This document shows positions 19,796 through 55,709 of a stretch of 64,000 nt of DNA, piece by piece. The number at the start of each line of letters is the position of its first letter. Position 1 is the first letter of the stretch. The notes beneath the pieces are model-generated. The model was not told where the DNA came from. It did no database searches and was given only the letters and a program-made list of their open reading frames with translations. Source of the DNA: Closterium sp. NIES-65 (Eukaryota; Streptophyta; Zygnematophyceae; Desmidiales; Closteriaceae); assembly GCA_948144175.1 (NCBI GenBank), contig CANXME010000105.1, forward strand, positions 868,001 to 932,000, written 5' to 3'. A program made the translations under genes and the position numbers.

Positions 19796-19822
19796 CTCAC
19801 CTCTTGACCTTGCTTGTACTGT

Positions 19823-19863
<41 letters not shown>

Positions 19864-23889: not shown

Positions 23890-26800
23890 TCAGAACTTCA
23901 CCTTCTCTTTCAAAAATAGGATCCCTTCTTGCTGCACAGACATCAATACGTAAGGTGGAACATGGAAATTAAAAAAAAAAAATGACTTTTAAGAAGCTAC
24001 TTAGAGAGAATAGCATACCAAACTGGGCGAGCATTCAGATATTTAAATTATATGATATCCAGGTCATGAAAATGAGCATATGCAATGTGCAACTCACCAC
24101 AAGGAAAAGCCAGAGGCAGCCCACAAGGCCTGGGAAGAGCGGGTACCACCATTTGAGGCGATGAAACTTGGGGGCGTCGAGGAAAATAAGTGGGAGGCCG
24201 GCAGCTGGGTGTGTGCGAGGGAGGATAAGGGGGACGGTGGGGTGTAAGGGATGGGGAGTGAGGATAAGGGGATATAAGGGAGGGTGTGGGGGAGGGACAG
24301 GGAGGGTTGGCTGCAAGATACCAAAACAGCGGGTACTGCTGCACGAGCGGCATATCTCTGTCACTGAGGTGTAGATGGGTTATTGAGGTGAATATGGGTT
24401 ACTGAGCGTGCTTATAGCGAAACCGGGTGGGGGTGGTGGATGGAGTTGGTGCAGTGCACGAACGTGATAGAGGCACAATGCAGCAACTGCTGTAGCTTAA
24501 GCAAGCCAATATAACGAGTACAAAAGCATGCTTATGACGAGTACAGAGGCGTGCTTTCAACGCACCAGGGGGGTGGACGGAGTTGGTGCATTGCATGACC
24601 GCAATAGAAGCAGCAACAGCTGTGGCCTTAGCGAGCCAACCCAACACATACCAAACACACCATAACGAGTAATCAAGCAATCTTATAATAAGTACTGAGG
24701 CATGCTTATAACGAGCACTGATGCGTGCTTATAACGCACCAGGGGGGTGGACGGAGTTGGTGCATTGCATGAACGCGATAGAAGCAGCAACTGCTGTGGC
24801 CTTAGCGAGCCATGACGGCCCCAGCAGGCAGAAGAGCGCCACTCCTATGAGGGCTGTTCCCACGTGGGCTATCAAGATGGTCTTGCGCTGTGGTTTTGGT
24901 TGGGGAGAGAGGGGAGCAAGAAAGTAGGGAGGGAGGAGAGTAGAGGGCGAGGGAGTGAAGGAGAAGGGCGAAGGAAAGCAACAGCCGCCTTGGCGAGCCA
25001 TGACGGCCCCAGCAGGCAGAAGAGCGCCACTCCTATGAGTGCCGTTCCTACATGGGCAACGAGGATGGTCTTGCACTGTTAAGGGTGGGGGAGGGGGACG
25101 CACTAAGAAAGGCGTGGGTTGGAAAGGAATTGAGGAGAAGGGTGACGGACTCAGCAGGCAGAAGAGGGCCACTCGTATGAGCGCCGTTCCCACAAGGCAG
25201 CTGCTTGTGGTGGCAGGGCGAAGAGGAGACAGCAGACATAGTGAAAACACCCGAAGAAAGTCACCTGAAGGCTGAGTATTCACCTGGGAGACGGCTGCTT
25301 GCGGCAGGGCGAAGAGGAGACAGCAGACGGCACCAAAGGATCCCAGGGAGACTGTGAGGCCGTGTGACTGTAACAGATGGTCCGCTAACGCGAATCCTGC
25401 AAAGGACACGAATGCGCCTGACAGCAGGAGACAGAGGGAAGGAAACAGCGGCGAAGGAACCGAGGGAGACTGTGAGGCCGTGTGACTGTAACAGGTGGTC
25501 TGCTAACGCGAACCCCACGAAAGACACCAATGCGCCGAATGGTGAGTAGGAACGAGGAGACAGGAAGGGGGAAGGAAGGAGGAAGAAGGGGGGTAAGAAA
25601 GGGGGAGAAGGAATAAGAGGGGGATTCGATGAGATGTAATGAAATTAGATGAAAAGGGAAGCAAGGGGGAAGACGAGGAGGAAAAGAAACGCAGCAACAG
25701 GGAAGACGGAGGCTCTTGGAGCGTCCTAAGAATCGCGAAGGCGAGCCTCGCCACGGAAACGAAGGGGTCCAGAGGTATGAGACGGGCGAGGGAGGAGTGG
25801 GGTGCGGTGCAGTGAGATGGGAAGGAATTTCGGAAGAGAGAAGGAAGAAGCAGGGAGGGACGGGGGATGGGATGGGCCGGGATGGGTGGGAAAGGGGTGG
25901 GATGGGAGGGGGCGTAATGGAATGGAGGTGGCACGGAGTGGTGGACTAACCACCCAACCCAACGCAACCCAACCCAACCCCAACCCAACCCATCCCTCCC
26001 CAAACCCGCCCCAACCCACCGCAACCCAACCCACCCCACCCCATTCCCAATCCCCAATCCCGGTGGACAGACACCAGCGCAGCCCCACTCACCGACGGCG
26101 GGCCACACAAGGTCGCTGATTGGCTGCTTCTTCTCCGCTTCTGGCGGCGCCGGTTGCGGAATGGCCGCGGCGAACTGGCGGAGCGCGCGCACGCAGGCAG
26201 AGGGCAGGAGGGCGGCGATGCGGAAAGGAGTGGGGCGGGTGGGTGGGAAAGAGGGGGGGAGGGGGGAATGGTGGGGAAAAGAAGCCGCGCGACGGAGGGG
26301 GAGAAGTGGGGAGGGGGGAAACGGGAGAGCGGGGAAGAGATTGTAGGAAGATGAGGAGAGGGCGAGGGAGGGGAACGTAAAGTTAGGGAGATGCGAAGAA
26401 GTGAGAATGCTTATCAAGAACCATAAGAAACGGAAACCTCACCAGCAAGGGGCGCGTGGACAGGGTAAACTCCAGAAACAGTACCAATTCATGGGAGTAT
26501 ACGAGTCAACTGCCCCTGGATAGGCGACGCAGCAGACAGAAACGCACCTCGGAAAAATCGGCCGCTCCCGCAGCGCCAGCGCCGGCGGCGGCGGCGGCGG
26601 CGGCGGTGGGACCTTGAGCCCGCACGCGTGCCGCGCCGCGCTTAGCGAACGAATGTCTGGTGTCGCTCAAAGCGATTCGGCGGGAAGACTCGACGTGAAT
26701 ATTGCGAGAGCTGCGAGCTTGTGCCGAGAGGCAATCTTGTGTCGAAGAATAAGTATGCCTTTTAGAAACCGAAGCGCGGGCAGGGACAACGTTATGACAT

Positions 26801-26922
26801 TCTTGAAGAGAAATTAAGGAGCGAGGTGGTTGTAATGATGCGGGAGCTGGAGCTACTGGTGCTGTCATAGTTCTTGTCGCAGGAGCCAATTGCATCGGTC
26901 GGAGATGAACGCCGCATGCCAT
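23890..26922 (-). CDS. HPP-family integral membrane protein (candidate plastid nitrite transporter)
   Basis: Six exons rebuilt: 26548-26922, 26093-26174, 25284-25417, 24740-24887, 24098-24204, 23890-23931, all with GT/AG ends and matching phases; about 295 residues. Exon 1 (125 codons) is rich in Ser, Arg and Ala, as expected of a plastid transit peptide. The body has SDLVWPAVG, ADHLLQSHGLTVSLGSFGAV, RKTILIAHVGTALIG, and the family signature NSVHPPAAGLPLIF spanning the exon 4/5 junction, then KWWYPLFPGLVGC and a short C-terminus QEGILFLKEKVKF. Four hydrophobic segments are visible. Some cyanobacterial and chloroplast HPP proteins transport nitrite; substrate here is inferred. Introns 2-4 contain degraded copies of exons 3 and 4. 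Confidence 0.88.
24420..25545 (-). repeat. degraded exon copies inside the HPP gene
   Basis: Copies of exon 3 lie at about 25447-25545 (no AG acceptor, no donor) and a fragment near 25205-25235. Copies of exon 4 lie at about 25145-25200, 24985-25060, 24555-24640 and, badly decayed, 24430-24500. The copies at 24985-25060 and 24555-24640 still translate in part (GTALIGVALFCLLGPSWLAK and NSVHPPGAL). Only exon 3 at 25284-25417 and exon 4 at 24740-24887 have both splice sites and correct phase. Confidence 0.85.
25935..26060. repeat. CCCAA-type simple repeat in HPP intron 2
   Basis: Runs of AACCC and ACCCC units, imperfect; not a telomeric array. Confidence 0.7.
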
Positions 26923-28382
26923 GATGGCTACGAGTCTCGATGGAAGAAACTTCTTGTTCAACGCGAGCGGTTCGGTTATGTTTAGTTGAAGGCTTTAGAA
27001 TCGGTTCGTATCGGCGGCACGAGACTGCAAGGAGAGGAAGGAAGAGACGGATGCTACCGAAAAAACCGACGGACGGGAAAACGCAGACAGATACAGTATT
27101 GTCGCAATGCAAACATTTGCGAATTCCGCTGACACGCTTAGCAAATGACTGAATTGTCTATCAAAGTGTTGGTCTTATTACAAAAGTCGTTCCCAGGGCC
27201 GGGTGCACAGCAGGGGAAGCTCTCTCCCTAGTGCTACGCTCTGCGTTAGTCGTCTATTTGTAAGCTCTGCACTGCATAGCAGAGTCAGGTAGCGACTCTT
27301 AGCTCCTTCAACGGATGGTTCAACTGTTGAGAGAGTGTCTCTTGGAAGTGCCGAACAGCAGCTGTGCTGGACAGAGAGCGGCTGGTGGGATGAAGAATCA
27401 AGGCGTGAATCTGACCTCAGATTGGGGGTGGTGGTGGGTGGTCGGGACTCGGGGGACGACATGGGGAGCAACCGCGAGTCCCTCCATGCAAATCGCAGGC
27501 GGGCCGATTTGCTGCCACCAAGAACTGCGACTTCTACCGACTTCCAAACCTGAGGTTCGGGGTAGCTTTGCCCCTCGGTTGTTCCGTGGCTGAGTTGACT
27601 GGTTGGGGAGGTCTTGGGCTTTCTGAGCCACAAATTTTTGGGCTTGGTTGCCCTTTGCATACGCGGTGCGGATGGGGAAACAGCAGTCACCAATCAGCTG
27701 CTGCTGTTTCACGCTTGTGGCGGCTGCTGGGTGGAGGGAAAGGTTCTGGGTACGACATGCGCGCTCATTGGTTTGAGCTCTACGAACAGCAGCGCCCAAT
27801 CGAAACCATTCATGCAGTTGGCAAATTGTTATTGAAATATTCACGAAACTATGCGCATTATTCGGCAAAAGGCTCTATGTTACGTTGGCAGCCCACGTGA
27901 TTGTGTAGCATACAGTTTTTCAAGAATCAATGCTACAATGCTTTCTGGTGATCTTCATACCTGCCATGGTGTCATAATTGCATACATGCAACAAAGAAAA
28001 TAAAACTTCAATTAGGTAGCGAAATCATTGCAAACATTTCCTTAAATGGCTCCTGAGGCAAACATAATTGTACATCTCACCACAAGGTGACTCGGTAATA
28101 GTTAGGTGCTCATGCTTGGCATGCTGCAAAGGAAAGAAAGAAGGGGGTTTAAAGCAACAACAGAACGTACCATTCTTGGCTTCAACTTTAGTTTGGCGAT
28201 GCAAACTCTTCCAAACACATGAATCTCTCGTTTGCAAACCCATATCCTCGTGCCACAGAGCTAGCAGTTGCTCGTATAGGGATCAGAAGAAGGGGGCCAC
28301 GGGGATGCCCAAGCACCCCTTAGAAGAAGAAAAAAAAAAAAAAAAAAAAACACAAACAAGAACAACACGTAGGAGAGAACAC
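26923..28382. other. intergenic region between HPP (5' side) and KDSR (3' side)
   Basis: Must hold the HPP promoter and the KDSR 3' region. The part 27178-27900 has higher GC and an open stretch of 171 codons on the minus strand without an ATG; I cannot assign it. A run of A at 28329-28350 lies just past the KDSR stop. Confidence 0.5.
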
Positions 28383-31300
28383 TCACGTTCCTCTGCCGTG
28401 GTTGATTCTATGCCACCGCCTCGCACTCGCATTAAAGCCCGCCACTGTTGCTGCTGCCACCAGCCGCATTGGCCCCGCTAGAAGCAGCTCCAGTAAGAGC
28501 TTGTTGAGTGACACACAGGGCGACATGCCTAAAACGAGGATAGGAGGAGGAAAGCGGGGGGGGGGGTGGGGTGGTTGGCAGAACAGGGAGGGAGGTGAGG
28601 AGGAAGTGGAGGTAACCTATATTTTGCTGAGTGAAGCACAGGGAATCATGCCTATAAGGAGGATGGAGAGGAAGGGCTGGGAAAGGTACGGGCGGAGGGT
28701 ACCGAGGGGGCAGGAGAACAGAAAGATTCCACAAGAGCCGCAGACAGATCACTCACCTGCAGTGGCGATGCTGAGCATCCAGCCGTCGAATCCGACAGGA
28801 GCGAGGAAATCTCCGCGTTCGACGGCTGAGATCGCAGCTCTCGCGACCGCCATGGGAGGAAAGGGCTTGTTGCCTTCTGTGATGGCTTTGGTGACTGCCG
28901 GTTTGGTTACGTTCTCTGGAGGGGGTTAGGGTTGGGAAGGTGAGGTGGGTGGGAAGTGGGGAGTAAGATGGGAATAGAAAGGGGGACCATGGGGGGTTGC
29001 AGCTCTCATCACGGTGGTGGCTGTCAAGGGAGGGAAGGGCTTGTTGCTGCCCGCCGCTGTGATGTGATGGAATTAATGTTTGACGCTGTTGAAGATAAGC
29101 CTGAGAAAGTACTCAGGGTACCCTCTGGCCTTTAGCCTCTTAAAGAAGAGTGCAAGAGAGGATTCATCACCAGTGAGCTGAAACCCCACTGTCCGCGGAA
29201 CTCATCATTCAAGACCTTTTGGGAGAGAAAAGTCCTCTTCTTTAATAGGCTAAAGGCCAGAAGTTACCCTGATTACTTTCTCAGGCCTATCTTCAACAGC
29301 ATCAAACATCAAGACAGGCCGATTCTGCTTCGCAGCTGCCAACAACACAAAGTGAGGGAAGTCCTCCAGTCCCTGAAGGTAAGAAGATGTCCAAGAACTT
29401 TGGACTTGGGGCTGGGGGGTTTTTGAGAATTCTCAAAAAACATACGCTGCATCATATCTTCCTCCCACAGTTTTTAGTGTGTTGGCGTTTGCCAAAGAGG
29501 TTACGCAACCGCTTGGTGAAAGCGAGATTTCAAGAACGGGGATACACCACCCCGTGAGTTGATGGGATTGAATTCATCCCACCAACCTGCACGTTGAATT
29601 GCATTGCAAATGCATTGTACAGCCAGCTAGCGAGCCGCAAGACGAGCCACACTGGACTTTTGTTTCTTGGTTGAGTGCTGGGCACGGAAGATGGGAGTAG
29701 ATAAGGAGTAGTCTTTTCTTGTAAATCTGAGAGCGCTGACGAAGGCCATCGGCCGAAACGCGCGCACGCTCGGTCTTGGAATGACATTTTTCCTTGCTTA
29801 TTCAATCCCTACTAGCCTAAGCTCAGCCTAGAGGAGATTAGAACGAGCTAGAGCTGTGGATCAGGGTCGAAACTATTTTTCTATGCGTCAAGGGAGGGAA
29901 GGGCTTGTTGCTGCCCGCCCGCTGTGATGTGATGGAGCTGGCGCCCTGCCTCTCACCTTGCTGCAGCTGAGGCGTGTCCGTGTCAGGAGGGAACAGCAGC
30001 ATCACAACGCATGTGCCCACGTGCACCAACTCCATCTGTAGTGCCTCTGCCAGCGCCTCTACCAGACCCCTCACCTCATGACCCTCTCAAGGAAAGAGTA
30101 CCTTGGTGCAGCTGAGGCGTGTCGGTGTCGGGAGGAAACAGCATCACAATGCGTGTGCCCACATGGACCAGCTCCATCTGAAGTGCCTCTGCCACTGCCT
30201 CTGCCAGTGCCCCTAGTCCACCAGTGACAGACCCTCACTCACCTTGTTGCAACTGAGGCGTGTCAGTGTCAGGAGGGAACAGCATCGCCACCCACGTCCC
30301 CACACGCACCATCTCCGCTTGCAGTGCCTCTGCCAGTGCATTCATGTCGCTCTGAAGGCAAGGGTACCTTGCTCTTGCCACTCACCTTGCTGCAGCTGGG
30401 GCGTGTCGGTGTCAGGAGGGAACAGCATCACCACCCTCGTCCCCACGTGCTCCAGCTCCATTTGTAGTGCCTCTGCCAGCCCTCTTAAAGCGAATTTCGC
30501 GGCCGAGTAGGCTGTGTAGCCATAGATACCCACCTGGCAAGGGGAACGGGAATAGGGGAACGGGGCAGGAGAACAAGGGACTTGTAAGTAACCTCACATC
30601 TCGAGATTTGGCGGCTGATTAGGCTGTGTAGCCATAGATACCCACCTGGAAAGGGGGGAGAGGAGGAACAAGGGAGTGGGGCAGGAAAACAGGGGAATTC
30701 TGAGCAGCCTTAGCACTGTAACAGGAGACGGCAAGCACTTCTCCCCGCCTACTGAGGTGACATTTGAGTCGACTCAAAAGTCACCTCAGTATAATGTCAC
30801 ACGATGTTTTGAGCCGACTCAAGAGTAACTTCTGAGTAGCCTCAGCATTGAAACAGGAGATGGCAAGCACTTCTCCGCGTCTACTTGAAAATCACTTGTG
30901 AGAATTCTCAAAAGTGCGCTTCTCCCTGACTACTTGAAAAATAAAATTTGGGAATTCTCAAAAGTGCAATTCTCCCCGCCTACTCATCTGCCTCGTCCCC
31001 TCTCCCCCCCTCCGCTCCCTCTTTCCTCTCTCACCTGCTCTGCTTGAAACGACACCAGCATTATCCTTCCCTCCCTGCCTGCTCTCTCCACAGCTGGCAG
31101 GGCTGCCTGGATCACATAGCCTCTCCACTTCTGCTGCTCCCCACCCCTCACACTACTCCTCCCATTACTCCCCCTCTCACCTGCCCTGCCTGAGACGACA
31201 CCAGCATTATCCGCCCGTCCTTGCCGGCCCGTTTCACGGCTGGCAGCGCTGCTCGGATGACATACACTGACGCCCAGTAGTTGACATTCATGAGCTGATG

Positions 31301-34300
31301 TGATAAGGGGGAGGAAGAGTGGGGGAAAGTGGGGGAGGTGGGTGCGTTGAGGGAGGGGTGGGGAAGAGGCAAGGCTGCTCGGATGACATACACAGACGCC
31401 CAGTAGTTTGACGCTCATGAGCTGATGGGGTGAGGGGGGAGAAGGTGGGGTGTTGTGCGTTGAAGAGGGAGGGTATTATGAGACAGAACACAAGGTGAAG
31501 GGGGGTGCACTGGGAGGGAAGCAGAGAAGAACACACGAACAGTGCCAATGGGGAGATGGGCTACTGACGCAAATTGATGCGGAAATCGAATCACATAGAC
31601 TGACGCCCATTAGTTCACGTTCCTCACGCGCGCACCTGCTGCTGATTTTCCACGGTATTGAACTCGAATTGGTGTGGGGTGCTCTGCCCCTGGCAGCAGA
31701 CGATCAATCACCACACATGCACCGCTGCTTCCTTCACACTCACACCTGATGCTGCTGCTGGTTCTCCCTACAAGCTCACCTGCTGCTTCCGCTGCTCACA
31801 CACACACGCACCTGCTGCTGATTTTCCACGGTATCAAACTCGAATTGATGTGGGGTGCTCTGCCCCTGGCAGCAGATCACCACATCCAGCCGTCCAAACG
31901 CGGCCACCACTTGATCAATGGCTCTCCTTGCATCGTCCAGATTCGCCGCATCGGCCGCCACGGACAGGAGGAAATCAGACGAGGGGGTGTCGGGTAGAAG
32001 CAAAGCCTCTAGCTGAGAGAGATGAGGCATGAATGGGAGAGAAAATGAGGACGAAGAGAAGTTATAAAATTACTCAAAAGTCGCCGCATCGACTGCCACG
32101 GACAGGAGGAAATCGGAGGAGGGTGTGTTGCGGGTGGAAGCAAGGCTTCCAGCTGGTGGGTTTTGGGAGCCACACCAAAGGAGGGAAATCATATGGACCC
32201 CACCCCGCTGGGGTTTTCCTCCAGAGGAAATCGGAGGAGGGTGTGTTGGGGGTGGAAGCAAGGCTTCCAGCTGGTGGGTTTTGGGAGCCACACCCAAGGA
32301 GGGAAATCACATGGACCCCACCCCGCTGGGGTTTTCCTCCAGAGGAAATCGGAGGAGGGTGTGTCAGGTGGAAGCAAGGCTTCCAGCTGGGAGGGAAGCA
32401 GCATGAACGGGAGAGGGAAAGGGGGAAATGGAGAAATCAAGAGAGGAGAGGAGGACGGAACGGTATAGACGAAAGTTCTGGGTGAGTTTTGAGTCGACTC
32501 AAGAGAGAGGAGAGGAGGATGGAAAGGTATAGACGAAGGTAGCTGACGCCAGCTACTTCCATCCTCCTCTCCTCTCTGATGAAGGTAGCTGACGCCAGCT
32601 ACTTCCATCCTCCTCTCCTCTCTGACGAAGGTAGCTGACGCCAGCTTCTTCCATCCTCCTCTCCTCTCTGACGAAGGTAGCTGACGCCAGCTTCTTCCAT
32701 CCTCCTCTCCTCTCTGACGAAGGTAGCTGACGAAAGTAGTTCTGGGTGAGGGAGCGCCAGCTGGAAGGAAGGCGACAAGATGGTAGGGATAGGGAGGAGG
32801 AGAGTAGGTGAGTGAGAAAAGGGAGAGGACGGACTGGGAAAATGAGCCCACGTTATGATGAAAAAGAGAAGGGCTTAAAGAGTGCAGAAAGAGGGAGCGT
32901 CAGGTGGAAGCAAGGCGTCAAGCTTCCTCAAGGCATCAAGCTGGCAGGGATCGGAAGGAGGAGAGTGGGTGAGTGAGAAAGCACACCTACACACACACCC
33001 TGGCTAAAGCACACACAACAATCGCCAATCTCACCCCCTCCTGCTGCATTGCCATCAATCCCCTATGCACACACTTTCCTGATGAAAGCACCCACCTGCT
33101 TGTGAGCAGAGGCCCTGACTGAGGGCGTATCTTTGGTTCCGGTCATGAGCACTGTTCATTCTACTGTTTGGGGCATCCGCAATTAGCGCATGACCCAAAG
33201 TGGAGCGTCGAGGCGCGCGCGGTCCGAACTTCGGGTCATCCATCCCTCTGCATGCGACCGTCAGTCAAAATGTTCCCCCGACCAATCATAATGCACTGCG
33301 ACCCCATGTTCAGTACCACACTGTAGACGACCGTCTAGTTTGATGCCAAGTTTGTTGGTTGGGTGGCGTTGTGGAACCGCGCAGATCTGAATGTGACTTT
33401 TCCCGCCGGGAATTTTGACGGTGTGGTGAGTGGGTTGAGTGTCTCGTGGGCCGGTAGAAGTGTTTCGTGTGTGGTGGTTTGGCCCTGCCCGATTGGGTGC
33501 GACGGTTGACGGGAGTCGCTTTCTGGGCGGGGAAACGTGCGCGCCAGTTTACGGGTCGCTCATGCACGAAGGCCCCGAAGTGGTGTTATGTGCAGTTTGG
33601 GTCATCCGCAATTTGCGGATGCCCGGAACAGTGCTCATGACCGGAACCAAAGATACGCCCTGAAAGCACCATCCCATTTTTTAGTCGACTCAAAAATAGG
33701 CTGCACTGCCATCAATCCCCTATGCACACACCCTCCTGATGAAAGCACCCACCTGCTTGTGTGCTGAGGCCAGCCGGTCCTTGTTACGAGCAGCGATCGC
33801 CACCCTCGCCCCCTGCTGCACCGCCATCTCTCCTATGCACAGCCCTATGCCGCTCGAACCACCCACTATCAGCACAGCCTTGCCCTGTGGGGTGTGTGGG
33901 GTGTGTGGCGCATGGTGGGTGTGTGGGGTGTGTGAGGGAGAAAATGGAAAGCCCTTGCTCCACTGCCAATTTCCCCATGCACAGTTCTATGCAGCTCGAA
34001 CCACCCAGTATCAGCTTGGCTTTGGCCTGTGGGTGGGGTGTGTGGGAAGGAACGCGGACGGAGCAGTAGTGAAGGAGAAAAGGGGAACCTTTTGCACCAC
34101 TACCACTTCCCGTATGCACTTTCGAGGATTCTCAAAAGCTGCTGACTGCCACTGCTCCTATGACAACCCTATGCCGTTAAAGCCATATCGCGGAAAAGAA
34201 ATGGGCCGAATTTTCGAGAAATGTGACAAAAAGGTGACGCATTGTACGTGATACTAAGTCGACGTTTCTCACTCACACCTTAAGCGAGATTCGCTTTGGC

Positions 34301-34380
34301 CGGCAAGCCCACGCGAGGATCTCAAACGAAATTACTATAACGGGGATCGTAACCAGTACCCACGCCCACCATTCCGCCAT
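28383..34380 (-). CDS. KDSR: 3-ketodihydrosphingosine reductase
   Basis: Short-chain dehydrogenase that reduces 3-ketosphinganine to sphinganine in the ER (second step of sphingolipid synthesis; TSC10 in plants). Seven exons with consistent phases: 34279-34380, 33753-33884, 31812-32012, 31181-31294, 30386-30533, 28757-28915, 28383-28528; 333 residues, the usual length. ATG 34380 opens a membrane segment ([19 protein letters not shown]). The cofactor site GGSSGIG is at residues 42-48, catalytic Ser near 178 (LVSSQAG) and Tyr192/Lys196 in [10 protein letters not shown], then the family motif FPPDTDTP. The usual NNAG-type loop reads CCQG at about 126-129. The C-terminal hydrophobic part includes [14 protein letters not shown]. 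Introns carry many exon fragments, a MITE and palindromes. A longer last exon via the GTGAGT at 28379-28384 cannot be excluded. Confidence 0.93.
29072..29312. repeat. inverted repeat, about 75 bp arms, in KDSR intron 5
   Basis: Arm 29072-29146 pairs with 29237-29312 with a few mismatches and about a 90 bp loop (for example CTGTTGAAGATA against its complement). It could be a decayed foldback or hairpin-forming element. Confidence 0.8.
29315..29800 (+). mobile_element. possible reverse-transcriptase remnant
   Basis: Several plus-strand stretches translate to [17 protein letters not shown] and similar, which resembles the region after the catalytic core in Penelope-like reverse transcriptases, but frames are broken and no catalytic motif is visible. 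The match is by eye only. Confidence 0.3.
29420..29439. repeat. 20 bp perfect palindrome (KDSR intron 5)
   Basis: TTTTTGAGAATTCTCAAAAA. Same arm as the other palindromes with an AATT core. Confidence 0.93.
29940..30640 (-). repeat. fragment copies of KDSR exon 5
   Basis: Three copies of the 3' part with its splice donor at about 29950-30075, 30100-30215 and 30240-30345, and a copy of the 5' part with acceptor at about 30610-30645, surround the full exon at 30386-30533. Confidence 0.88.
30751..30790. repeat. 40 bp near-perfect palindrome (KDSR intron 4)
   Basis: Arms ACTGAGGTGACATTTGAGTC and its complement with one mismatch, centred on GTCGAC. A second, shorter relative (TTTTGAGCCGACTCAAGA) follows at about 30807-30824. 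Confidence 0.95.
31020..31125 (-). repeat. nearly intact copy of KDSR exon 4 (3' part)
   Basis: Translates to [22 protein letters not shown] followed by a GTGAGA donor, parallel to [22 protein letters not shown] of the real exon 31181-31294. A 5' fragment copy lies at about 31370-31425. Confidence 0.85.
31630..32395 (-). repeat. fragment copies around KDSR exon 3
   Basis: Downstream copies of the 3' end and donor at about 31636-31712 and 31795-31812. Upstream copies of the 5' end and acceptor at about 32082-32152, 32220-32275 and 32340-32392; two of these are in a roughly 120 bp tandem unit. Confidence 0.85.
32487..32504. repeat. 18 bp palindrome (KDSR intron 2)
   Basis: TTTTGAGTCGACTCAAGA with one mismatch; lies between two copies of a segment reading GAGAGGAGAGGAGGA. 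Confidence 0.9.
32515..32730. repeat. 46 bp tandem repeat in KDSR intron 2
   Basis: About four copies of a unit containing GAAGGTAGCTGACGCCAGCT followed by a C/T-rich half, with one or two base differences between copies. Confidence 0.9.
33123..33660. mobile_element. MITE-like element in KDSR intron 2
   Basis: 538 bp with perfect terminal inverted repeats of about 35 bp (ends GGGCGTATCTTTGG), extending imperfectly further inward, flanked by the 3 bp duplication TGA (33120-33122 and 33661-33663). No coding capacity for a transposase. A 3 bp duplication with GGG ends recalls PIF/Harbinger elements, though their target is usually TWA. Confidence 0.8.
33676..33697. repeat. 22 bp palindrome beside the MITE
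   Basis: Centred on AGTCGACT with T and A runs as outer arms. It lies between two copies of a segment containing GCCATCAATCCCCTATGCAC (33050s and 33710s). Confidence 0.92.
33930..34070 (-). repeat. decayed copy of KDSR exon 2
   Basis: Translates to [21 protein letters not shown], parallel to the Rossmann segment of the real exon 33753-33884 but with key Gly residues changed. Confidence 0.85.
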
Positions 34381-38000: not shown

Positions 38001-38373
38001 GATGTCTAGGAAGTCCTTGGTGTGTGGCTGCAGCTTCACGTAGGTTCCTTTGGGGAGGGTGGGGTGGGTTGTTTTGCTCAATGCCCATCCAACAAGCACA
38101 TCCTTTACAATCACACTCACACAGGCCACCCGCAACCACTACTCACACAGCCTTGGGGTTGGAGATGACTGGAAATCCTTGGTGTGTGGTTGCAGCTTCA
38201 CGTGGGGTGAGGCGCCTCTGACACCTTCCAATAAGCACATCACTCACTACAGGCACACCTTCCAAAGAAACACTCACACAGCCTTGGGGTTGGAGATGTC
38301 TAGAAAGTCCTTGGTGTGTGGCTGCATGCAGCTTCACGTAGGTGCATTTGGGGAGGGTAAGGTGGCGTTACTG

Positions 38374-38404
<31 letters not shown>

Positions 38405-43991: not shown

Positions 43992-44129
43992 CTGCCGTGG
44001 GGAGGGGGTAAGGGGGGGGGAAGAAGGGGAAGAAGGGGAGGGGGGGGGGAGGGGTGGGGGAATTGTGGATGACGGAGGTGGAGGGAGAATGTTTAGATTC
44101 AGGGAACGGCAGAAAGGAGAAGGCCATGA

Positions 44130-44465
44130 CCTCATTGGAGCTCAGCGGCTGACCCATGCCCCCAGATGGCAGGAATTATTACATGGATCGAGGGTAGGTT
44201 GATGCTACTTTTGAGAGTTCTCAAAAGTAACGTCAAAAGAGCGGCAGAAAGGAGAAGGCCATGATACCATGCAGGCTCAGCGGCTGACCCATGCCCCCAG
44301 ACGGCAGAAAATACTACATGGATTGAGGGTAAGTTGATGTTACTTTTGAGAGTTCTCAAAAGTAACGTCAAAAGAGCGGCAGAAAGGAGAAGGTCATGAT
44401 CTCATTCAGGCTCAGTGGCTGACCCATGCCCCCAGACGGCAGGAAATATTACATGGATCGAGGGT
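44130..44465 (-). repeat. three tandem copies of the 5' part of UFD1 exon 43905-43991
   Basis: A roughly 130 bp unit containing the GGMGQPL coding fragment and upstream intron; two units contain the palindrome ACTTTTGAGAGTTCTCAAAAGT. Copies of the exon 3' end lie at about 43720-43745 and 43798-43835. Confidence 0.9.
44206..44229. repeat. 24 bp palindrome in a UFD1 exon-copy unit
   Basis: TACTTTTGAGAG against its complement with one central mismatch; repeated identically at 44341-44364. Confidence 0.95.
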
Positions 44466-44620
44466 AGTAGCTGGGGAGGGAAACATGAAAGATTGGACTG
44501 TGACTGCTAAAAAAAAAACTAGCGATCAGGCACATAGACGAGGCGATTGACCAGGAAGGTATCAGGAAAACACAAAAAAAGGTATCACAAATAGAATTCC
44601 GGCAAACTTGTCTCGTTGTG

Positions 44621-44930: not shown

Positions 44931-45786
44931 ACTTGTATATACGCCGTGGCAATCGGGAATCCAAATAAATCCTTACCGCGGGAAGAATAGATGTCGCTGA
45001 GAAATTCTAGGGAACTCTGCCAAGAACGCAAGGCTATTAAGTACGCCGCTCAAACCAGAGGGGGGGTAATAACGAGAGAGGGTAACCAGGAGGGGGGGTA
45101 ATAGGGGGAGAGAGGGTAACCAAGAGTGAGGGTAACCTGATTGACAGCAGATTCGCCTTACCATGATCAGAGATTGACGTGGACGATCAGGATTGGATGC
45201 TGAAGATTTTCTCTAGACGCGTTGCGACGAAGAAACTATCACGGTTGCCAAAATTTATGGTCAAGGACCTAAATCGATCAACTGAGGAAGCTGTTGCAAC
45301 TACCGTAGTTCTCCTAGCCTACTTCTAAGTCTCGTCGCGAGCTTCGCGCGCCCAACAGGACGATCGAGCCCTCTACAATTCTCAAACAACTGGCTCGCTC
45401 TGATACACTCAAGGTAGCTTCAGCTGCTAGAGTCAACCAAGTGCTTGCTCCGACGACGAAAAAGTAACTGAAACGTGAATGAGTAACTAACCAAGTGAGG
45501 GAACTGAAGTGGCGGGTTTGGATGAATTTGACAGCACTCGCTAGGATGCTGTTGGTCTCTTCTCGTTGCCGTTGTCCTGGCCTGGGAATTTTCCTCCGCA
45601 AACCCAAAACGACCGCAGACGCTTCCAGTGTGTGATCCGATACAATACATTAGCATGAGGGGCTGTTCTTAATATGTGCGTAACTGAAGCGACTTAGCCA
45701 ACACTTAGTCTCAATCTCCAACCATAACAGGATTTTCTTCTTACGCAAAGAAATGAAACAAAACAGCATAGTTCCACATTCACATA

Positions 45787-48700
45787 TCAAAACGTCAACA
45801 AGCGATCACTAGAGTAACCCATCCCCTCCAGCAAAGGCGTCATCGCCCTGATCATGGGCGGAGGGCCACACATCAGCGCCAGGCTGTCCTCCCCGCCACG
45901 TGGCAGCCTCTCATTGGCCATTGCAGCAGTGACAAACCCAATCCCATACTTCCACCCTTCAGGCACAGGCTCGCAAATAGTGTACCAAACATGGAACCTT
46001 CCCGGGTACTGTTCAACCCACCGGTCCATTTCGTCTTGTAGCAGCACGTCAGCCACCGACCTGTTTCCGAACAGCACCCACATCTCCGTCTTATCCTCCG
46101 GATCAGCCAGAATCGCTTTTGCCACCTGATAAATGGGGGTAATTCCGGTGCCTCCCGCCAGCATGGCCAATTTCTTCCCCTGCTTCTCCTCCCCACTGAC
46201 CAGGAACTTTCCTCGCCCGAGATACTCTATATGACCCAAAGGTCCCTTAATCTCGATAGTGTCACCGACCGATAGTGACTCTAGGTGCTGTGACATAACC
46301 CCGCCATCGGGAAACTGCGGAACTACCCCCTTAAAATAGACCTTCACCACCAGGTCGAAATACCCCACCCCGTCTTCGTCCGAGGTGGTCGGCGTGTACG
46401 CGCGCATCACCAGTTTGCCGCCCACCTTGGCACAAACAAACAAGTGCTTGCCGACCGGGAGCCCGAGGATGTGATTGGCCGAGGGGAGGGCGAAACGGAA
46501 GCGACGGACATCCGGCGAGAGGGAGACCTTGGAGAGGAGAGGCACGGAGATTCGCTTCTTGGGGTCGAGTGTGGTGGGGTGGAGGGCAGTGGGTGAGGCA
46601 GGGAGAGGAGTGGGGGCGGGCGTTGCAGCAGGAACAGTCACAGCAGCAGCAGCAGAAGGCCCCTCCTCCTCGCCCTCTCCCGCCACATCCCCTATATAGT
46701 ACTCCTCGAGCATCTTCTTAGCCTTTTCCGAGTGAATCGCATCAAACTCCTCTGTGACATCCGTGCCCGCATTGATGGTGATGCTCTCGCTGCCGCCCGG
46801 GTGGTCCTTGAGAAACTTGGTGCAATCATACACCCTCCCATGCACCACGATCCACGGTGACGATTCGTCCGCGTGCCGCTCGATCTCAGCCATCGAGATC
46901 TTCCGAACAGCCGCACCGGACCTCTCTCCCGAACCTGCCACCGCTGCCGAAGCTGCAGGAGCAGGAGCAGGGCCTGGCTTGGTTTGAGAAGCCCCAGCAG
47001 CAGCAGCAGCAGCAGGAAGATCTGCTGCCTTGAGAACAGCAGCAGTTGACCCTCCTGCTCCTGCTGCTGCCATATTTCCCCCCGGCTTGCCGTCCCCTGG
47101 AGCGTCATACATCCAGCCGCCAGGGAGGTTGCCGGGGCGGGTGGGGTGGATGAACTGCAGGCCGATGGAGCCTTCTGGCGTCACCGTGGGGGCCACTCGC
47201 ACTCGGAACCAGCAGTTGTTCATCATGCCCTGGTGGGGGGGGGGGGGGGGGCGGGGGTGTGGAGGGGGGGATGGAAGAGGAAGAAGAGGGAAGATGAGAG
47301 GGCAGGGTGCGGTTGTCGTGATTTTCTAATCGACTCAATATCAGCCCGCACTCACGATGCCATGCCACGTCAGCAGCCCTCACTTATGATGCCATGCCAC
47401 GTCAGCAGGCCTCACTCATGCTGCCATACCACGTCAGCAGGCCTCACTCATGATGCCATGCCACGTCAGCAGGCCTCACTCACGATGGCATGCCTCGTCA
47501 GCAGCCCTCACGCATGATGGCATGCCACGCCAGCATACCTCACTCACGATGGCATGCCACGTCAGCAGCCCTCTCTCATCATGCCATGCCACGTCAGCAG
47601 CCCTCTCTCATCATGCCATGCCACGTCAGCGGCCCTCTCTCATCATGCCATGCCACGTCAGCAGCCCTCCCTCATCATGCCATGCCACGTCAGCATCCCC
47701 CACTCACCATGACGTTCCAGGTCAGCTTATCGGGCTGCGTGTTGGTGGCATCATCCCACGCCCGAACTGCAACCTCGCTCGCCCCCACCAGGTCGATCAC
47801 GGGGACTTCGGTTGCCCACAGGCTCCACGTCCAGTGCTTGCCGTGGCTGGTGGGGGGGAGGGATGGGAGGGAGGGGATGGGGGGAGATGGGAGGGGATGG
47901 GAGGCACAGATGAGGGAGAAGAGAGTGTGAAGTCGTGGCATAGTGAGGGGACGAGAGAGAGAGGCAAGACACGAGAGAGAAAGGTGGGGAAAGAGGCAGG
48001 GCTGGGAAGTGGGGCCCGGTGGTGAAAGGGAGTACTCACCGAGTGGGAGGGCTGGGGTGGGTGATGTCACACAGCCGCCACGTGCTCCCTCCATCCAATG
48101 TGATCTCGACACGTGTCACCCTCCTGCCGCCACCCGAGTACGCGTACCCCTTCATCGTCACTACCTGCCGGCCCGCGCCGCCCTCCAAAGCCACCACGTC
48201 ACCATGGTCCGGACTAACTATCGCCGAATTAATCGCCAGCTCGTTGCAAATATACTCCTTTTTGCGCCACCACCCATCCTTCATAGCAGTCTCAGCGTCC
48301 ACATGTGAAGGCAGCACGCGGTTGTCATGAAAATGGTAGTAGTTTTGAGATTCTTCCCGGGTAACTTCCACTTTTTTCAGCCACTTGACCATCCGCCCGC
48401 CGATAAATCCAGGGATAATTACCCTGACCGGAAACCCGTGGTCCGGGGAGAGCTCCTGCCCGTTTTGCTCGTACGCCAGGAGAACTTCGTTTGCAGGGTC
48501 CATTACTCTCCATAATTCCATGCTAGTTCCGTAAGTACTCCCTCCTCCTCCCGGCAACGTTTCCGCCCCTTCGAAGCACACGAATTTCCCCGCGTTCTTC
48601 CCTTTTAGCTGAACGCCGCACTTTATAAGCACATCTCTTAGCAAAACACCCTTCCACACCGTCGTTGCTGCCGCTCCCGCTCCCCAGCTGAACCCAATCG

Positions 48701-49968
48701 TCTGCTTGACCGCGTTTTGCTCTTTCCGCCTGTTCCCCACGCACACCAGCAGCACGGGAAGCTTCCTGGAAGGCATCGCGAGCAGATCCGCCATTGACAG
48801 GCTGGCAGGCTTGCTGACTAGACCGGAGATGTCGATTCGCCACGTGGACCAATCCAGGCGCGGCACGTAGCCGTGGTTCCGAACGTAGTGGAGAGGCACG
48901 GGAGTGATGAACCCCGAGGCTGGATCCGAGCGGGAGCCGGGAGCCGCCGAACCTGCCGCCAACCCTGAATCAGAAGCAGAGCCCGAGCCTAACCCGGAGG
49001 TCAGGAGGCGGGAAAGCGGCGGCTCGCAGTTGAAGGGGTGCTTTCCGGTTAGGCGCACGAGGGAGGGATGGCGGGGGATCCACCTGGGGGGAAAGGGAGG
49101 GGGAGGGGGAGGGTTGGGGGAAGGGGGAAGGGGGGTGGGGGAGGGGGGAAGAAGAGGGGAAAAGCGGGGGAGAGGGGGGATGTGGGAGAGAATGGGGAGG
49201 GGGAAGGGACGGAGGGAAAAGCGGGATGAGAACGACGGGGAAGCGAGAGCGAGGATGGGATGGGCGAACAAGGTAGATGGCACGAGGCAGATGCGATTAA
49301 TTAGGTGAGAGGGGAAGGGGAAGTGAAGAGGTTTCGTGTGGGAAGGGGGGAGTACCGATAGGCAGGAAGGGTGGATGACTGGGAGGAAGGGGGGGAAGAA
49401 CGGAGGGAAATGCGGAATCTACTACATACTAACGGGGAACGTGGGGCGAGAAAAGAGACTCCTCGAATCACGGGTCTCGGGGGTCTCAACGAGAATGCAA
49501 CGTCAATCCTCAACGAAATTCTGACCGAATCCTCAAGCTCCGGCCGACGTACTTGTCAGGCGTGTTCGCGTCGCGGGCGTCGATCGAATCGGGTTCATCC
49601 GCCACTACCGGATACTCGTACTGCTCCTCTTCTTCCTCCTCGTAATCCTCATCATCCTCCATTGTCTCCGCATCATTCTCCTTTCCATTCTCCGCTTTCT
49701 CCGTTTCACTCTCCTTCTCCTCATCCACCTTCTCCGATTTGTTATTCTTCCCCTCGACCGGAACGATGCTGTCTGCTCCGACGTTCACAATCGTCTTCTT
49801 CAGCTCGTTAAACGCATTCTCCACGTTTGCGACAGCGTTGGCGATGGTAACCCCATTCGCGACAGGTCCGTCACTTTCGTAACTTTTCGCCAGCACGCCT
49901 TTCGCCGCAATGGTGCTGGCGACGAAAGCCGCAGCGGAGACGGCAGAAGATTCCTGATGGGCCACCAT
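45787..49968 (-). CDS. NIA: NADH nitrate reductase
   Basis: Cytosolic molybdoenzyme that reduces nitrate to nitrite with NADH, the first step of nitrate assimilation. Four exons: 49553-49968, 48040-49083, 47708-47846, 45787-47229; phases close; 1013 residues. Start chosen at ATG 49968 (frame open upstream without ATG). Acidic N-terminus (DDEDYEEEEEE), then RLTGKHPFNCEPPL, molybdenum-ligand Cys near 253 in VCVGNRRKEQN, dimerisation domain with WDDATNTQPDKLTWNVM, an Ala/Pro-rich hinge, cytochrome b5 with haem His in HPGG (about 676), FAD site RAYTPTT, NADH site GGTGITPIYQ and CGPPPM, C-terminal Phe. Hinge 1 lacks the phospho-Ser/14-3-3 motif of land-plant enzymes. Intron 3 is a 32 bp tandem array. 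Confidence 0.97.
47357..47708 (-). repeat. 32 bp tandem array in NR intron 3, starting at the splice donor
   Basis: Eleven head-to-tail copies of a 32 bp unit (352 bp). On the coding strand the unit contains GCTGACGTGGCATGGCAT followed by a GTGAGTG-like segment; the first copy overlaps the exon 3 donor ATG|GTGAGTG, and several copies keep a GTGAGTG. Confidence 0.95.
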
Positions 49969-51678: not shown

Positions 51679-54600
51679 TCAGCCTTCTTCCTCCATAACC
51701 TCTTCACTGCCTTCCTCCCCATCGGAATTATCACTTTCATCCTCAGAAGAATTACTCTCATCATCTTCGGACTCTTCATCTGCAACCAAGCACGACACCC
51801 TAATGGAGGGAAATTCTAATATCGTGCGCCCTGCAAGTTGTGTCCGAAGGGTTTTGCGGATGTCAAGATCAAACAGCTGTCAGAATTCATGCAAGAAGCG
51901 TGTAAGGGAGAGAGGGGGTTGGGAGAGACGAGGGACCGTGGGGGAAGAGAGGGGGTTTGCCGGATATCAAGCTCACACAGCTGCCAGATTTCATGCAAAA
52001 GCAAGCAGGTGCCTGCCTGTGGCACGAAGCATGATAACGAAGGGGAAAGATAAAAAAGCACAAAAACCATGCCTGGGAAGGAGGCACTACTTTGCTGCGA
52101 TCTCAGCCGCCACAAGATCTTTCCTAATTAGTCATGGGACACATCACAAAAAGTAACACATGAGAAGATACCCATGGAAAAGCAGAACCATACCTGTGAA
52201 GGAGGCGTTTCTAGCTGCAGTCTCAATCGCTGCAAGACCTCTCCCAAGGAGGCTGCTGGATGCGAAGACGAAGGAGAAGTTGCGAGTTGCGATGCAGGTA
52301 CCACCAATTCTGCCGTTTCTGTTGCTGTTGTTGCTCCTGCTGGTGGTTGTGGTGGTGGTGGTGGTGCTGCTGCTGATGCCGTTGCTGTTCCACCTGCTGC
52401 TGCTGGAGGTGCAGTTGAAGCTGGTTGTGCTGCTGCAATTTGGCCTTTCAGTGCCTGTCTTATGGCTGCTTCAGCTGCTGCTATAAGAGGCTCATCCTCT
52501 GAGATTCTGAGAGCATGGGAATAGAAATAGCAAGGCAAGAAAGAGGGAGACGAACAAGAGATGAAGTCTTGATGCGCGGCTGCGACTGAGGTTACTAGTG
52601 CCTGGCTTATGGCTGCTTCAGCTGCTGCTATACGCGGCTCATCCTTAGAGATTCTAATAGCAAGGGAAGGGAGATATCAAGAATGAAAAGGGAGAGAAAC
52701 AAGAGGGTGCGGTCTGCTGCAATAGGGGCTTTCAGTGGTTTTCTAATGGCCGCTTCAGCTGCTGCTATAAGCAGCTCATCCCCTGAAACTCAAAACAAGA
52801 GTACGAAATGGGGATATCAAGGCAAGAAAGGGAGAGAAACAAGAGGGTTAAGTTATTAGGGTTAAGTTATTAGGGCTTTCAGTGCCTGCCTTATGGCTGC
52901 TTCAGCTGCTGCTATAAGCGGCTCATCCTCTGGAAACTCTAAGAACACGGGAATGGGGATGTTACAAAGAATAAAAGAGACGAAGAAGAGGCTGAAGTAG
53001 ATATGTGAACAGGCAGTGCCTCAAAGAAACATGCAAAAACTCCAGGTGAAGCAGAACTTTTGTGAAAGGCAGGAGAAAATTACCTGAGTTCCACAAAAGT
53101 TGTGGAACTCAAAATACAAGAAAATGAGATGAGGCACCCAAAAGCAGAGACACTGGATTCGAACTGACCAGTGAGAAGATGTGACTTTGCTTTGCGATTT
53201 TCCGTCTGACTGACTTACATTGAGTCTATCGTGTGTGGCAGAAGGAACGTTGAAAGCGAGGCTGCTGTGCTCCCATTGGCAAGCACGTGGTTGTCGTTGT
53301 TGTTTTCATCCATGCAGATGGATCGGATTGCAAACTGCCATCGCACATGCCACATGATGCACCGCTTCCTGCAATGAGGGCATGAATGAACATGGACATG
53401 TTCACATCACACAGAAACACAAGTTATTGGCATGCATGTGGCTGTTGTTGTTCTCATCCATGCGGACGGACCGGATTGCAAACTGCCATCGCACATGCCA
53501 CATGATGCACCGCTTCCTGCAGTGCAGTGCGCATACAAATTCACAGATACACACATATACACATTAGCATTCATGCTTATGGACCTGAATGCAAACTGCC
53601 ATCGTACATGCCACATGATGCATCGCTTCCCGTGGTGAGCACATGCACAAACATGCACATGTCCACACAGAAGCACGGGTTAATAGCATGCATGTGGCTG
53701 TTGTTGCTGGCACCAGCATAAGGCTGCCAGGCCAAATGAGAAGGCAACACAGCAAGAGAGGGAGAGGAGGAGAGCGGGCAAGCGAGGGGGAAACTGGGTA
53801 TGTTTGTGAATAAAAAAAGGTTCTGGGGTTTCACAGGCTCTGGACCGCAACGCGCCTGTGCCGAAACCAGGTTCAGTCGGCCTTGTGCTCTGACCAGCAT
53901 CACCAGCATCACCAGCATCAGCAGAAGGAAGACAGGGGGTGCCTGTTGTGGTTGCAACACATACCTGTGCTGAAGTTCGTTCGGTTCGCCTTGCGTTTGA
54001 ACATGCCTGGTGGCATCAGCAGCAGCTCAATGCCAAGGCATTATATGGATGATTTGGGGTGTGTGGAGTGACTGTGGGTGTGCGGGGGTACCTGTGTTGA
54101 AAGTACGTTCGGTTGGACTTGCGCTTGGACATGCCAGGAGGCATCAGCAGCAGCTGCACGCCTCTCTGCCTGGCTGTCTGCTGCATTCGCCCCCAGTGCT
54201 TTCCCACCTGGTATACAGAAGAAGAGAAACGAGGATGGCACACGGTTGAAGGGGTAAGAGAGCGGTTGAATGGAGTGGAAAACGGTTGAAGGTGCAATGG
54301 TTGCAGCTGCACGTCCCTTTGCCTCGCTGTCTGCTGCATTCGCCCCCAGTGCATTCCCACCTGGTATACAGCTGAAAAATATAAGTGGGTGGTTGAGTGG
54401 AGTGGAGGGAGGTTGGAGAAATGGTAGCAGCTGAATGCCCCTCTGCCTGGCTGACCGCCCCATACTTACTTCAGAGACGTTTTTTCAGCTTACTTTGAAT
54501 GGCACTCCTGATTGAGTGAGAAGGAACCTTCTGCCCTGTTTCCTACCTGTGCCTCGTAGCGGACCCCTAGAGCCGTGCGCGTGCGCTTCGCCACGTCATA

Positions 54601-55709
54601 CTGCAGCAACGCGTCTTCCAGGAAACGCAGGTCTGGTGGTGGTTGCAAGGAAAGGGATGTGGAGAGGGGGGAGGGGAGGGGGTGTGGGGGTTGGGTAAGG
54701 TGGGGTCTTGAGGAGGGGTCTTTGCCACGTCATATTGCAACAACGCATCTTCCAGGAAACGCAGGACTGGCGATGGTTGGAGAGGAGGAGGGGGGTTCAG
54801 GTGGAGGGGGGGTGGGGGTGAGGAGGGCAGGGGGAAGGGGGAGGAAGGGTGGGCAAGGAGGGACATTGGAATAGGGCCTTAGCCACGTCATACTGCAGCA
54901 GCACATCTTTCAGGAAACGCAGGTCTCGTGATGGTTGCTGGGGAGGCAGGAGAGAAAGAAGTGGGGGAATGCGGACAAAGTGAGGCCATGGGATAGGAGC
55001 CATATGGGGGGAGGAGGAGGGGCGGGGAAGGAGGGTCCATGGGGGAGGAAATCTTAGCCTACACATCTTCCAGGAAACGTAGGTCTCGTGATTTCTCGCA
55101 CCATAAATAGCAGACGATTTATGCTTGTAACAAGGGTTGGGGTTCCCAAGTTTTACCCCGCAAGACTTTCTAGAAATATGAAGTCTAATTCAGTTCGTGA
55201 GGGGATTATCCGGGTTTTTGCAGGGCTTTTTCGATGTTTTGCAGGGTTTCAGGGTTGCAGAAAAGCTAGATACAAAGCGAAGCCTCGTTACAAGTTTCTA
55301 CCCCGTTGTGGGAGTAGTGAAACTGCAGCAAAACCCGCGGTACACGCTCACCTGATTCATTACCACACTGCCCATCATGACACCGTCCTGATTCTACAGT
55401 CACACCTGACACCAGCTGGTTATCGTCGAACTTCGTTATTGGAACAAATTCCGCGCGGTTGCGCTTCCCCGTGCATCCGCTCGCCGTCTTGTGCGCTTTT
55501 ACGCACAGCACGCTACACGTGGCAGCACTACAGCCAGGACACCTGTACTTGGCGGGGTCCTGCTGACACTGAGAGCACATCGTGCGCGGAGCTTGCGCCG
55601 ATGAGAACCCCGCGGCAAGCGCCAGCTCCGCCATCGCGGGAAGTGTAAGTTCCCCTACTCTCGTTTCCGCAGGTGTTGGTGGGGCGTTCCGCGCTCGAAG
55701 CTCCGTCAT
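51679..55709 (-). CDS. BCD1: box C/D snoRNA assembly factor BCD1 (HIT zinc-finger protein)
   Basis: Nuclear factor for box C/D snoRNP assembly (ZNHIT6 in animals). Six exons with closing phases: 55406-55709, 54547-54632, 54092-54207, 53219-53368, 52194-52506, 51679-51876; 388 residues from ATG 55709. The HIT zinc finger is at residues 45-79 (CSQC, CPGC, CSVLC, H73, C79). Then SDLRFLEDALLQYDVAKRT, LLLMPPGMSKRKSNRTYF, MWHVRWQFAIRS, an exon starting ISEDEPLIAAAEAAIRQALKG with a Pro/Ala-rich linker, and the C-terminal LFDLDIRKTLRTQLAGRTIL block with a very acidic end (DEESEDDESNSSEDESD). Divergent from PRA1 across about 1.1 kb. Each internal exon has degraded copies in the next intron. Confidence 0.9.
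51935..52010 (-). repeat. copy of the 5' part of BCD1 last exon
   Basis: Translates to LCELDIRQT after an AG acceptor, parallel to LFDLDIRKT in the real exon 51679-51876. Confidence 0.8.
52590..52950 (-). repeat. three copies of the 5' part of BCD1 exon 52194-52506
   Basis: At about 52592-52655, 52735-52790 and 52880-52945; each encodes a version of DEPLIAAAEAAIRQAL behind an acceptor-like sequence. Confidence 0.9.
53440..53645 (-). repeat. two copies of the 5' part of BCD1 exon 53219-53368
   Basis: At about 53435-53520 and 53580-53640, coding for RCIMWHVRWQFA with the same frame start as the real exon. Confidence 0.88.
53945..54470 (-). repeat. copies of parts of BCD1 exon 54092-54207
   Basis: A 3' copy (PPGMFKRKANRT) at about 53958-54035 and 5' copies with acceptors at about 54290-54370 and 54425-54470 flank the real exon. 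Confidence 0.88.
54715..55090 (-). repeat. three copies of the 5' part of BCD1 exon 54547-54632
   Basis: LRFLEDALLQYDVAK-type fragments at about 54720-54770, 54875-54930 and 55060-55090. Confidence 0.88.

Follow-up and report, generated by a model that had tools for sequence, protein, structure and literature searches.

Introns of five genes of Closterium sp. NIES-65 contain partial, same-strand copies of the adjoining exon edges that probably arose by short direct duplications

The introns of at least five genes of the zygnematophyte Closterium sp. NIES-65 contain partial copies of their neighbouring exons. These genes, HPP, KDSR, UFD1, nitrate reductase (NR) and BCD1, are located in the window analysed in this work, which is the whole stretch of 64,000 nucleotides at positions 868001-932000 of contig C105. 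The copies are local and lie on the same strand as the exon, which remains whole on the side that is continuous with its other half. Annotated intergenic DNA lacked the duplications found in introns, many of the joins carry a palindrome, the unit numbers of the arrays vary between recent homeologs, and the same pattern was observed in other gene families. It is probable that introns of this strain have grown by short direct duplications generated in break repair, many of them straddling splice junctions and often with a palindromic join, followed by amplification and selection.

The five genes, all on the minus strand, were rebuilt with GT-AG introns, and the gene names agree with the Pfam matches of all five models:

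23890..26922, minus: HPP gene, 6 coding exons (GT-AG model and Pfam)
28060..34380, minus: KDSR gene, 8 coding exons (GT-AG model and Pfam)
35031..43991, minus: UFD1 gene, 8 coding exons found (GT-AG model, Pfam and protein alignment)
45787..49968, minus: nitrate reductase gene, 4 exons (GT-AG model and Pfam)
51679..55709, minus: BCD1 gene, 6 exons (GT-AG model, Pfam and annotated protein)

The exon with the start codon of UFD1 was not found during the modelling, in which the 8 other coding exons were placed. When compared to the NIES-53 and NIES-68 proteins, the UFD1 model showed no exon-copy insert, with gaps only in the N terminus and in a low-complexity part. The annotated NIES-65 BCD1 protein was identical to the rebuilt model from the start codon onward. 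The assembly searched comprises 874 Mb; the genome report gives 876 Mb and 40,587 genes, with 5.0 introns each on average and a mean intron length of 485 bp, and describes an assembly built on PacBio reads with an N50 of 30 kb and 110 Gb in total (PMC10407611).

A BLAST comparison of exons with introns, carried out in the five genes with a main cut-off of at least 30 bits, revealed 70 same-strand exon matches in the adjacent introns (41 upstream and 29 downstream). At this cut-off no match was found on the reverse strand of the adjacent introns or in the non-adjacent introns of the same gene, and the introns of other genes, a search space 16-fold larger, gave no same-strand and 2 reverse matches. 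When the cut-off was lowered to 25 bits, 37 matches fell outside the adjacent same-strand class, versus 74 inside. Merging of overlapping matches resulted in 58 copies, 34 upstream and 24 downstream of their exon. Almost all upstream copies derive from the 5' half of their own exon (33/34) and almost all downstream copies from the 3' half (22/24), as had been claimed in an earlier reading made from the sequence only, which also held that each copy usually contains one exon edge with its splice site. The exon edge is reached within 3 bp in 24 of the 34 upstream and 19 of the 24 downstream copies. Where the alignment of a copy runs across the splice site, the acceptor AG is conserved in 21 of 23 cases and the donor GT in 13 of 18; for 17 copies the alignment does not cross the site. 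None of the 58 copies spans 90% of its exon and none is full length. The description of degraded partial copies beside exactly one intact exon was right.

Copies were found for 18 of the 22 internal exons, weakly for KDSR exons 6 and 7 and UFD1 exon 3. The same BLAST gave no copy for HPP exons 2 and 5, UFD1 exon 2 and NR exon 2. The 27 introns contain 40 duplication families, 16 at a donor edge, 16 at an acceptor edge, 8 at neither (one of these within a transposon-like insert) and none at both; edge families are present in 21 of the introns and at 31 of the 54 splice edges. Five introns, of 166-469 bp, have no duplication family. Short arrays with units of 19, 32 and 49 bp contain an exon end with its donor. 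One of them, in NR intron 3 (47230-47707), consists of 11 copies of a 32-bp unit whose source is the end of exon 3 with the donor, and it therefore raises the number of affected genes from the four proposed earlier to at least five. In UFD1 intron 5 up to nine decoy donors are found next to the real one. As in tandem duplications, the copies are local, direct and unbroken over the exon-intron border. Their positions are the following:

24401..24638, minus: HPP exon 4 3' part, two downstream copies, donor GT kept in one (BLAST)
24987..25193, minus: HPP exon 4 5' part, two upstream copies (BLAST)
25454..25536, minus: HPP exon 3 5' part, upstream copy (BLAST)
29952..30336, minus: KDSR exon 5 3' part, three downstream copies (BLAST)
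31025..31118, minus: KDSR exon 4 3' part with donor, downstream copy (BLAST)
31368..31450, minus: KDSR exon 4 5' part with acceptor, upstream copy (BLAST)
32081..32415, minus: KDSR exon 3 5' part, three upstream copies (BLAST)
33952..34176, minus: KDSR exon 2, two upstream copies with a palindrome between (BLAST and palindrome position)
37818..39190, minus: UFD1 exon 5 3' part with donor, nine downstream copies in an array (BLAST and array)
39479..40261, minus: UFD1 exon 5 5' part, seven upstream copies (BLAST)
40311..40761, minus: UFD1 exon 4 3' part, downstream copies including a 19-bp array with donor (BLAST and array)
40995..42029, minus: UFD1 exon 4 5' part, nine upstream copies (BLAST)
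42318..42488, minus: UFD1 exon 3 end with donor, 49-bp array (array and duplication families)
44104..44467, minus: UFD1 exon 1 5' part, three copies upstream of exon 1 with palindromes between
47342..47706, minus: NR exon 3 end with donor, 32-bp array of 11 copies (array)
52597..52932, minus: BCD1 exon 5 5' part, three upstream copies (BLAST)
53426..53706, minus: BCD1 exon 4 5' part, two upstream copies (BLAST)
54720..55090, minus: BCD1 exon 2 5' part, three upstream copies (BLAST)

The suggestion that the process is wider than these genes is supported by two other gene families. For the chaperonins (PF00118), the best 30 of 98 matches were merged to 15 distinct exon loci, and with a copy cut-off of at least 35 bits 11 of the 15 had same-strand copies in their own flanks and none had reverse copies. 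In all the own-flank copies listed, the side of the flank is the side of the matching exon half. Thirteen matches between loci at 35 bits (5 same-strand and 8 reverse, the loci not being uniformly oriented) were set apart as paralogous exons or background. Among 74 matches of the proteasome family PF00227, four distinct exons with partial neighbours (on C1817, C2400, C1111 and C170) were identified by eye, all of them following the rule.

In the founding event proposed here, a staggered break, with nicks on opposite strands, would have both overhangs filled in before joining, turning a segment T into T|T, and a palindrome built or captured at the join would give T-palindrome-T. Slippage or unequal exchange would then amplify some units. 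When the doubled segment runs from exon to intron, the first copy would stay with the exon and the second would become a downstream 3' fragment with a donor; the mirror case would leave an upstream 5' fragment with an acceptor. Selection would remove duplications inside exons or of whole exons, because the protein would change, as well as those across a whole intron, and one-edge copies would be left. The one-edge rule would be a consequence of tandem-duplication geometry and purifying selection, with no need for special machinery. The true exon would extend from the last acceptor to the first donor, an arrangement that would suit exon definition.

The palindrome found at many joins has the core TTTTGAG-N4-CTCAAAA, with 30,327 exact copies in the genome versus 4 for a control pattern. 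The window contains 23 palindromes with up to 3 mismatches, when 2.4 were expected. Its introns, taken together with the stretch upstream of UFD1, contain 5 exact cores in 19.9 kb; if almost all of the 30,327 cores were intronic, about 0.31 per kb of intron would be expected from the gene number, introns per gene and mean intron length of the genome report (PMC10407611). With up to 2 mismatches, 10 palindromes were found in 49.9 kb of chaperonin loci (9 distinct, two of them being one homeologous site) and none in 70 kb of stretches from contig C1883. In 34 exact cores the arms matched each other within the copy, outward from the core, at frequencies of 0.88, 0.68, 0.71 and 0.59, reaching background by about 8 bp, and base frequency alone would give about 0.42, 0.36, 0.41 and 0.38. 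The arms, with consensus AGGTGAC, vary between copies and match within a copy, and the consensus of the full palindrome is AGGTGAC-TTTTGAG-N4-CTCAAAA-GTCACCT. The constancy of the core speaks for a specific source. The palindrome at the join could arise by addition of the same sequence to both ends or by fold-back; a telomerase-like enzyme adding the same short sequence to both ends would make a palindrome, which is speculation. The centres listed are mostly self-complementary (TCGA, AATT, ACGT, GCGC). The palindrome also occurs in tandem arrays of its own, with a spacing of about 37 and 53 bp in contig C6 and of 42 bp in C10.

At 15 of 20 chosen genome loci the palindrome lies between two direct repeats of 20-129 bp, when compared to 18 of 600 random windows. 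These loci were not random, having been chosen by hand from 50 distinct listed places on C6, C9 and C10 with palindrome arrays omitted. The test adds a search of flank size for data and null alike, introduced after evident repeats were missed; the earlier cut-offs (score 28, distance 15 bp) gave 11/20 versus 8/600 on the same sample. In the chaperonin loci the proportion was 7/11 versus 19/275 (7/10 distinct, two of the 11 being one site), and an earlier join test gave 6/11, with no null computed. The palindromes of the window are internal to introns and not at intron borders, several of them between exon copies. They separate copies of the same exon in KDSR exon 2, UFD1 exon 1 and UFD1 exon 5, and, with three mismatches, in KDSR exon 3:

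34119..34138, unstranded: palindrome between two KDSR exon 2 copies
39802..39837, unstranded: palindrome between two UFD1 exon 5 copies
44334..44371, unstranded: palindrome between two UFD1 exon 1 copies

Two pairs of homeologous loci differ by a palindrome together with a doubling. Locus L036 is 53 bp longer than L035, corresponding to a 23-bp palindrome and a 30-bp direct doubling, and L025 is 44 bp longer than L024, corresponding to a 28-bp palindrome-bearing insert and a 16-bp doubling in a stretch that holds other palindromes. Judging from these alignments, a gain of palindrome and doubling at L036 and L025 is likely, and not proven because an exact deletion between the repeats would yield the same empty site. 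Filler sequence at some joins is typical of staggered-break fill-in duplication, and the presence of filler, palindrome or other, at joins of the duplications described here, although not in every case, fits this process. A stronger version, in which an intron-aimed repair or insertion activity would fill in staggered ends and connect them by a palindrome generated in situ, doubling its targets genome-wide, so that intron length would be largely debris of splice-junction duplication, is put forward only tentatively and is more probably wrong than right.

It is rather unlikely that the palindrome is a mobile element, its direct repeats being long target duplications and the palindrome-free duplications old insertions that lost it. 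The number of exact cores, the flanking direct repeats at 15 of the 20 loci and the two homeolog differences that combine palindrome and doubling would all be expected of such an element, but the length of the repeats varies from 20 to 129 bp and the arms, matching within a copy, vary between copies. The constant terminal repeats and the target duplication of fixed length of a DNA transposon or miniature inverted-repeat transposable element (MITE) were not found, as both arms and repeat lengths vary.

Local direct duplications cover 10,039 of the 18,707 bp of intron (54%) and none of the 14,051 bp of annotated intergenic DNA in the window; 1,627 of the 21,601 bp of long terminal repeat (LTR) elements are covered, and inverted pairs amount to 0.6% of the intron sequence. 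In the five genes local direct duplications, mostly of splice-junction segments, thus make up over half of the intron sequence, and they reveal a way of intron growth distinct from transposon insertion. The outer exon ends (start and stop, PRA1 included) had no copy within 1.5 kb outside in any of 11 cases, versus 31 of the 54 splice edges (Fisher P 4e-4), a contrast that selection at the start and stop ends may enhance. The ends of PRA1 lack copies, in agreement with the earlier view that this gene is spared. In the C43 chaperonin locus the start and the end of the duplications coincide with those of the gene; in the C1657 locus the duplications continue to the end of the stretch.

Purine/pyrimidine tracts were considered as a cause and rejected. 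In introns the density of tracts of at least 15 is about 9 times the intergenic value, but the number of edge families did not rise with tract density (rho -0.36, P 0.07) and 34 exon-side breakpoints were not pyrimidine-rich (P 0.12). Complementary breakpoints of the 5' and 3' copies within one exon, striking at first sight, were also discarded, with P 0.04 in one of six permutation tests and 0.10-0.49 in the others.

Random tandem duplication over the whole genome, filtered by selection, with short ancestral introns explaining the edges and palindromes as a separate matter, is an improbable alternative. A simulation of random duplication with the limits set by selection gave 77% edge families when the ancestral introns were set at 200 bp and 68% at 250 bp, close to the 32 of 40 (80%) seen, and the five introns free of families measure 166-469 bp. 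However, this alternative does not account for the lack of duplications in the intergenic DNA when 54% of the introns are covered, or for the difference between outer exon ends and splice edges, to which selection at starts and stops may contribute.

Several observations weigh against growth of introns by break-repair duplication with a palindromic join. The intergenic zero refers to 14 kb only and leaves aside the stretch upstream of UFD1 (43992-45200), in which 366 of 1,209 bp (30%) are covered and which was classed apart as probable intron. Two arbitrary unannotated stretches had 432 and 1,854 of 10,000 bp covered, and the C1883 stretches 10-16%; the contrast between introns and the rest is therefore evident in the annotated 14 kb only. 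The simulation with ancestral introns of 500 bp gave only 40% edge families. Inside the window the join test was weak (6/16 versus 67/400), as was its earlier form (5/16 versus 166/960), and the first test, on the distance of palindromes to duplication ends, showed no enrichment; most exon-edge families of the window have no palindrome. The homeolog differences leave the direction of change unfixed. Among four doublings of otherwise single stretches, assessed by eye, the palindrome is present in two, a different filler in one and no filler in the last; BCD1 intron 2 shows a 30-bp difference that is an apparent doubling with another filler, and L040 a 19-bp difference that is an apparent doubling without filler.

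The copies diverge from their exons by 0-32% (median 12%); 7 of 63 contain in-frame stops and 12 have frameshifting gaps. Changes in UFD1 were polarised with a diverged paralogue on C1883, used as outgroup for exons 1, 4, 5 and 6 only. The changes at codon positions 1/2/3 were 45/35/42 in the copy lineage and 2/1/70 in the exon lineage (17 changes unassigned); when only distinct changes were counted, the copies of an array not being independent, they were 37/32/30 and 1/1/32. Since the changes in the copy lineage show no codon-position bias, the UFD1 copies, the only ones polarised, are dead and drift neutrally beside constrained exons. Coding constraint on the copies, hinted at by the raw excess at the third position (287 versus 102 and 82), was rejected when polarising assigned the excess to the exons. 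It is very unlikely that the copies have a function, be it as alternative exons or as splicing decoys under selection: AG or GT is conserved in most of those whose alignment crosses the splice site and one public NIES-65 model of BCD1 on C1780 (P0125) incorporates copy sequence, but the absence of codon-position bias, the stops and the frameshifts are against it, and copies are absent from the NIES-65 BCD1 model and from the UFD1 models of NIES-53 and NIES-68.

In the public BCD1 model of Naga37s-1 the end of exon 3 is present three times in our own reading of the alignment, and most likely these are intron copies annotated as exons. The public Closterium BCD1 models P0125 and P0126 seem to include exon copies. 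Such copies seem to mislead genome annotation, and the automatic annotation of the genus may be affected.

The C1883 paralogue of UFD1 (82-91% identity in exons 1, 4 and 5 and 73% in exon 6) obeys the same position rule, with 3 or 4 upstream exon 4 copies versus 9 in the window. The homeologous contig C1780 differs from positions 19800-62221 of the window by 0.65% substitutions and has the same arrays with different unit counts. Tandem blocks of 9, 19, 31, 32 and 46 bp, all intronic, differ between both contigs, as does a block of 311 bp within the array of UFD1 intron 5; there are 16 other indels of at least 8 bp, including two coding, two simple repeats and one 541-bp insert. The duplication process is old and the arrays are still changing. 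An assembly artefact with invented or mis-joined arrays, the danger that the sequence-only reading had itself pointed out, is hardly credible because the copies diverge up to 32%, the homeolog shares the arrays at different unit counts and long PacBio reads are behind the assembly, even if repeats are hard to assemble and were judged here from the assembly and not from reads. That reading had missed the cause of the one-edge rule, the neutral decay, the confinement to introns, the NR array and the palindrome at the joins.

Intron gain, either by duplication of AG|GT exon segments or by Introners, would also place exon-like sequence in introns and is extremely unlikely. In the AGGT model the new intron starts with the 5' part of the downstream exon and ends with the 3' part of the upstream exon, and in the Closterium introns the order of the parts is reversed. 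The target duplications of 3-9 bp of Introners were not found (20-129 bp in 15 sampled matches, 16 and 30 bp in the homeologs), and the palindromes of the window lie inside introns, their borders being neither intron borders nor recruited splice sites.

Comparisons with known systems refer to the accessible parts of the cited papers. As in the potato RdRp gene, tandem duplication crosses the intron-exon boundary with the splice site included, but the potato case is one event that made a new intron, whereas in Closterium dozens are found in five genes and elsewhere and the copies stay in existing introns (PMC4974935). Local tandem duplication also shapes exon-intron structure in the intron sliding and exon tandem duplication of Drosophila, where introns originate from duplicated coding segments that contain a proto-splice site, whereas introns of Closterium grow by copies of neighbouring exon edges (PMC2891723). 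Small tandem duplications by staggered-break fill-in and end joining are established in other cells; they too are direct, lie at joins and measure tens of bases, but the part consulted mentions for them no constant palindrome and no restriction to introns (PMC8355091). Introners resemble the Closterium inserts in being element-like, with inverted repeats and target duplications and some with a bias to genes, but they make introns and have 3-9 bp repeats, when in Closterium the inserts lie within introns and the repeats reach 129 bp (PMC9860276). Single duplications of intron-exon borders were already known (PMC4974935). A literature search on exon fragments in introns, intron growth, Closterium, duplication mechanisms and palindromic insertion, with subscription papers and supplements mostly outside its reach, found no report of a genome rich in such duplications or of the palindrome.

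Each copy preserves an earlier state of its exon, the decoy donors beside the real one constitute a ready experiment on splice-site choice, and the palindrome is a marker for counting the process in other strains.

The presence of homeologous segments in the window and C1780, 0.65% apart, fits the variation in gene copy number reported for this species complex. The 541-bp insert (33119-33659, KDSR intron 2) is MITE-like, with inverted arms, and is missing from C1780. Two loci of the UFD1 paralogue on C1883, near 116 kb and 2725 kb, are 98.9% identical over 6 kb, in opposite orientation and near the contig ends, and represent either an inverted duplication or an assembly fold-back. Reading frames of putative Copia-like and Gypsy-like LTR elements, named by reading of the open reading frames, are located at 1-19900 and 62579-63766.

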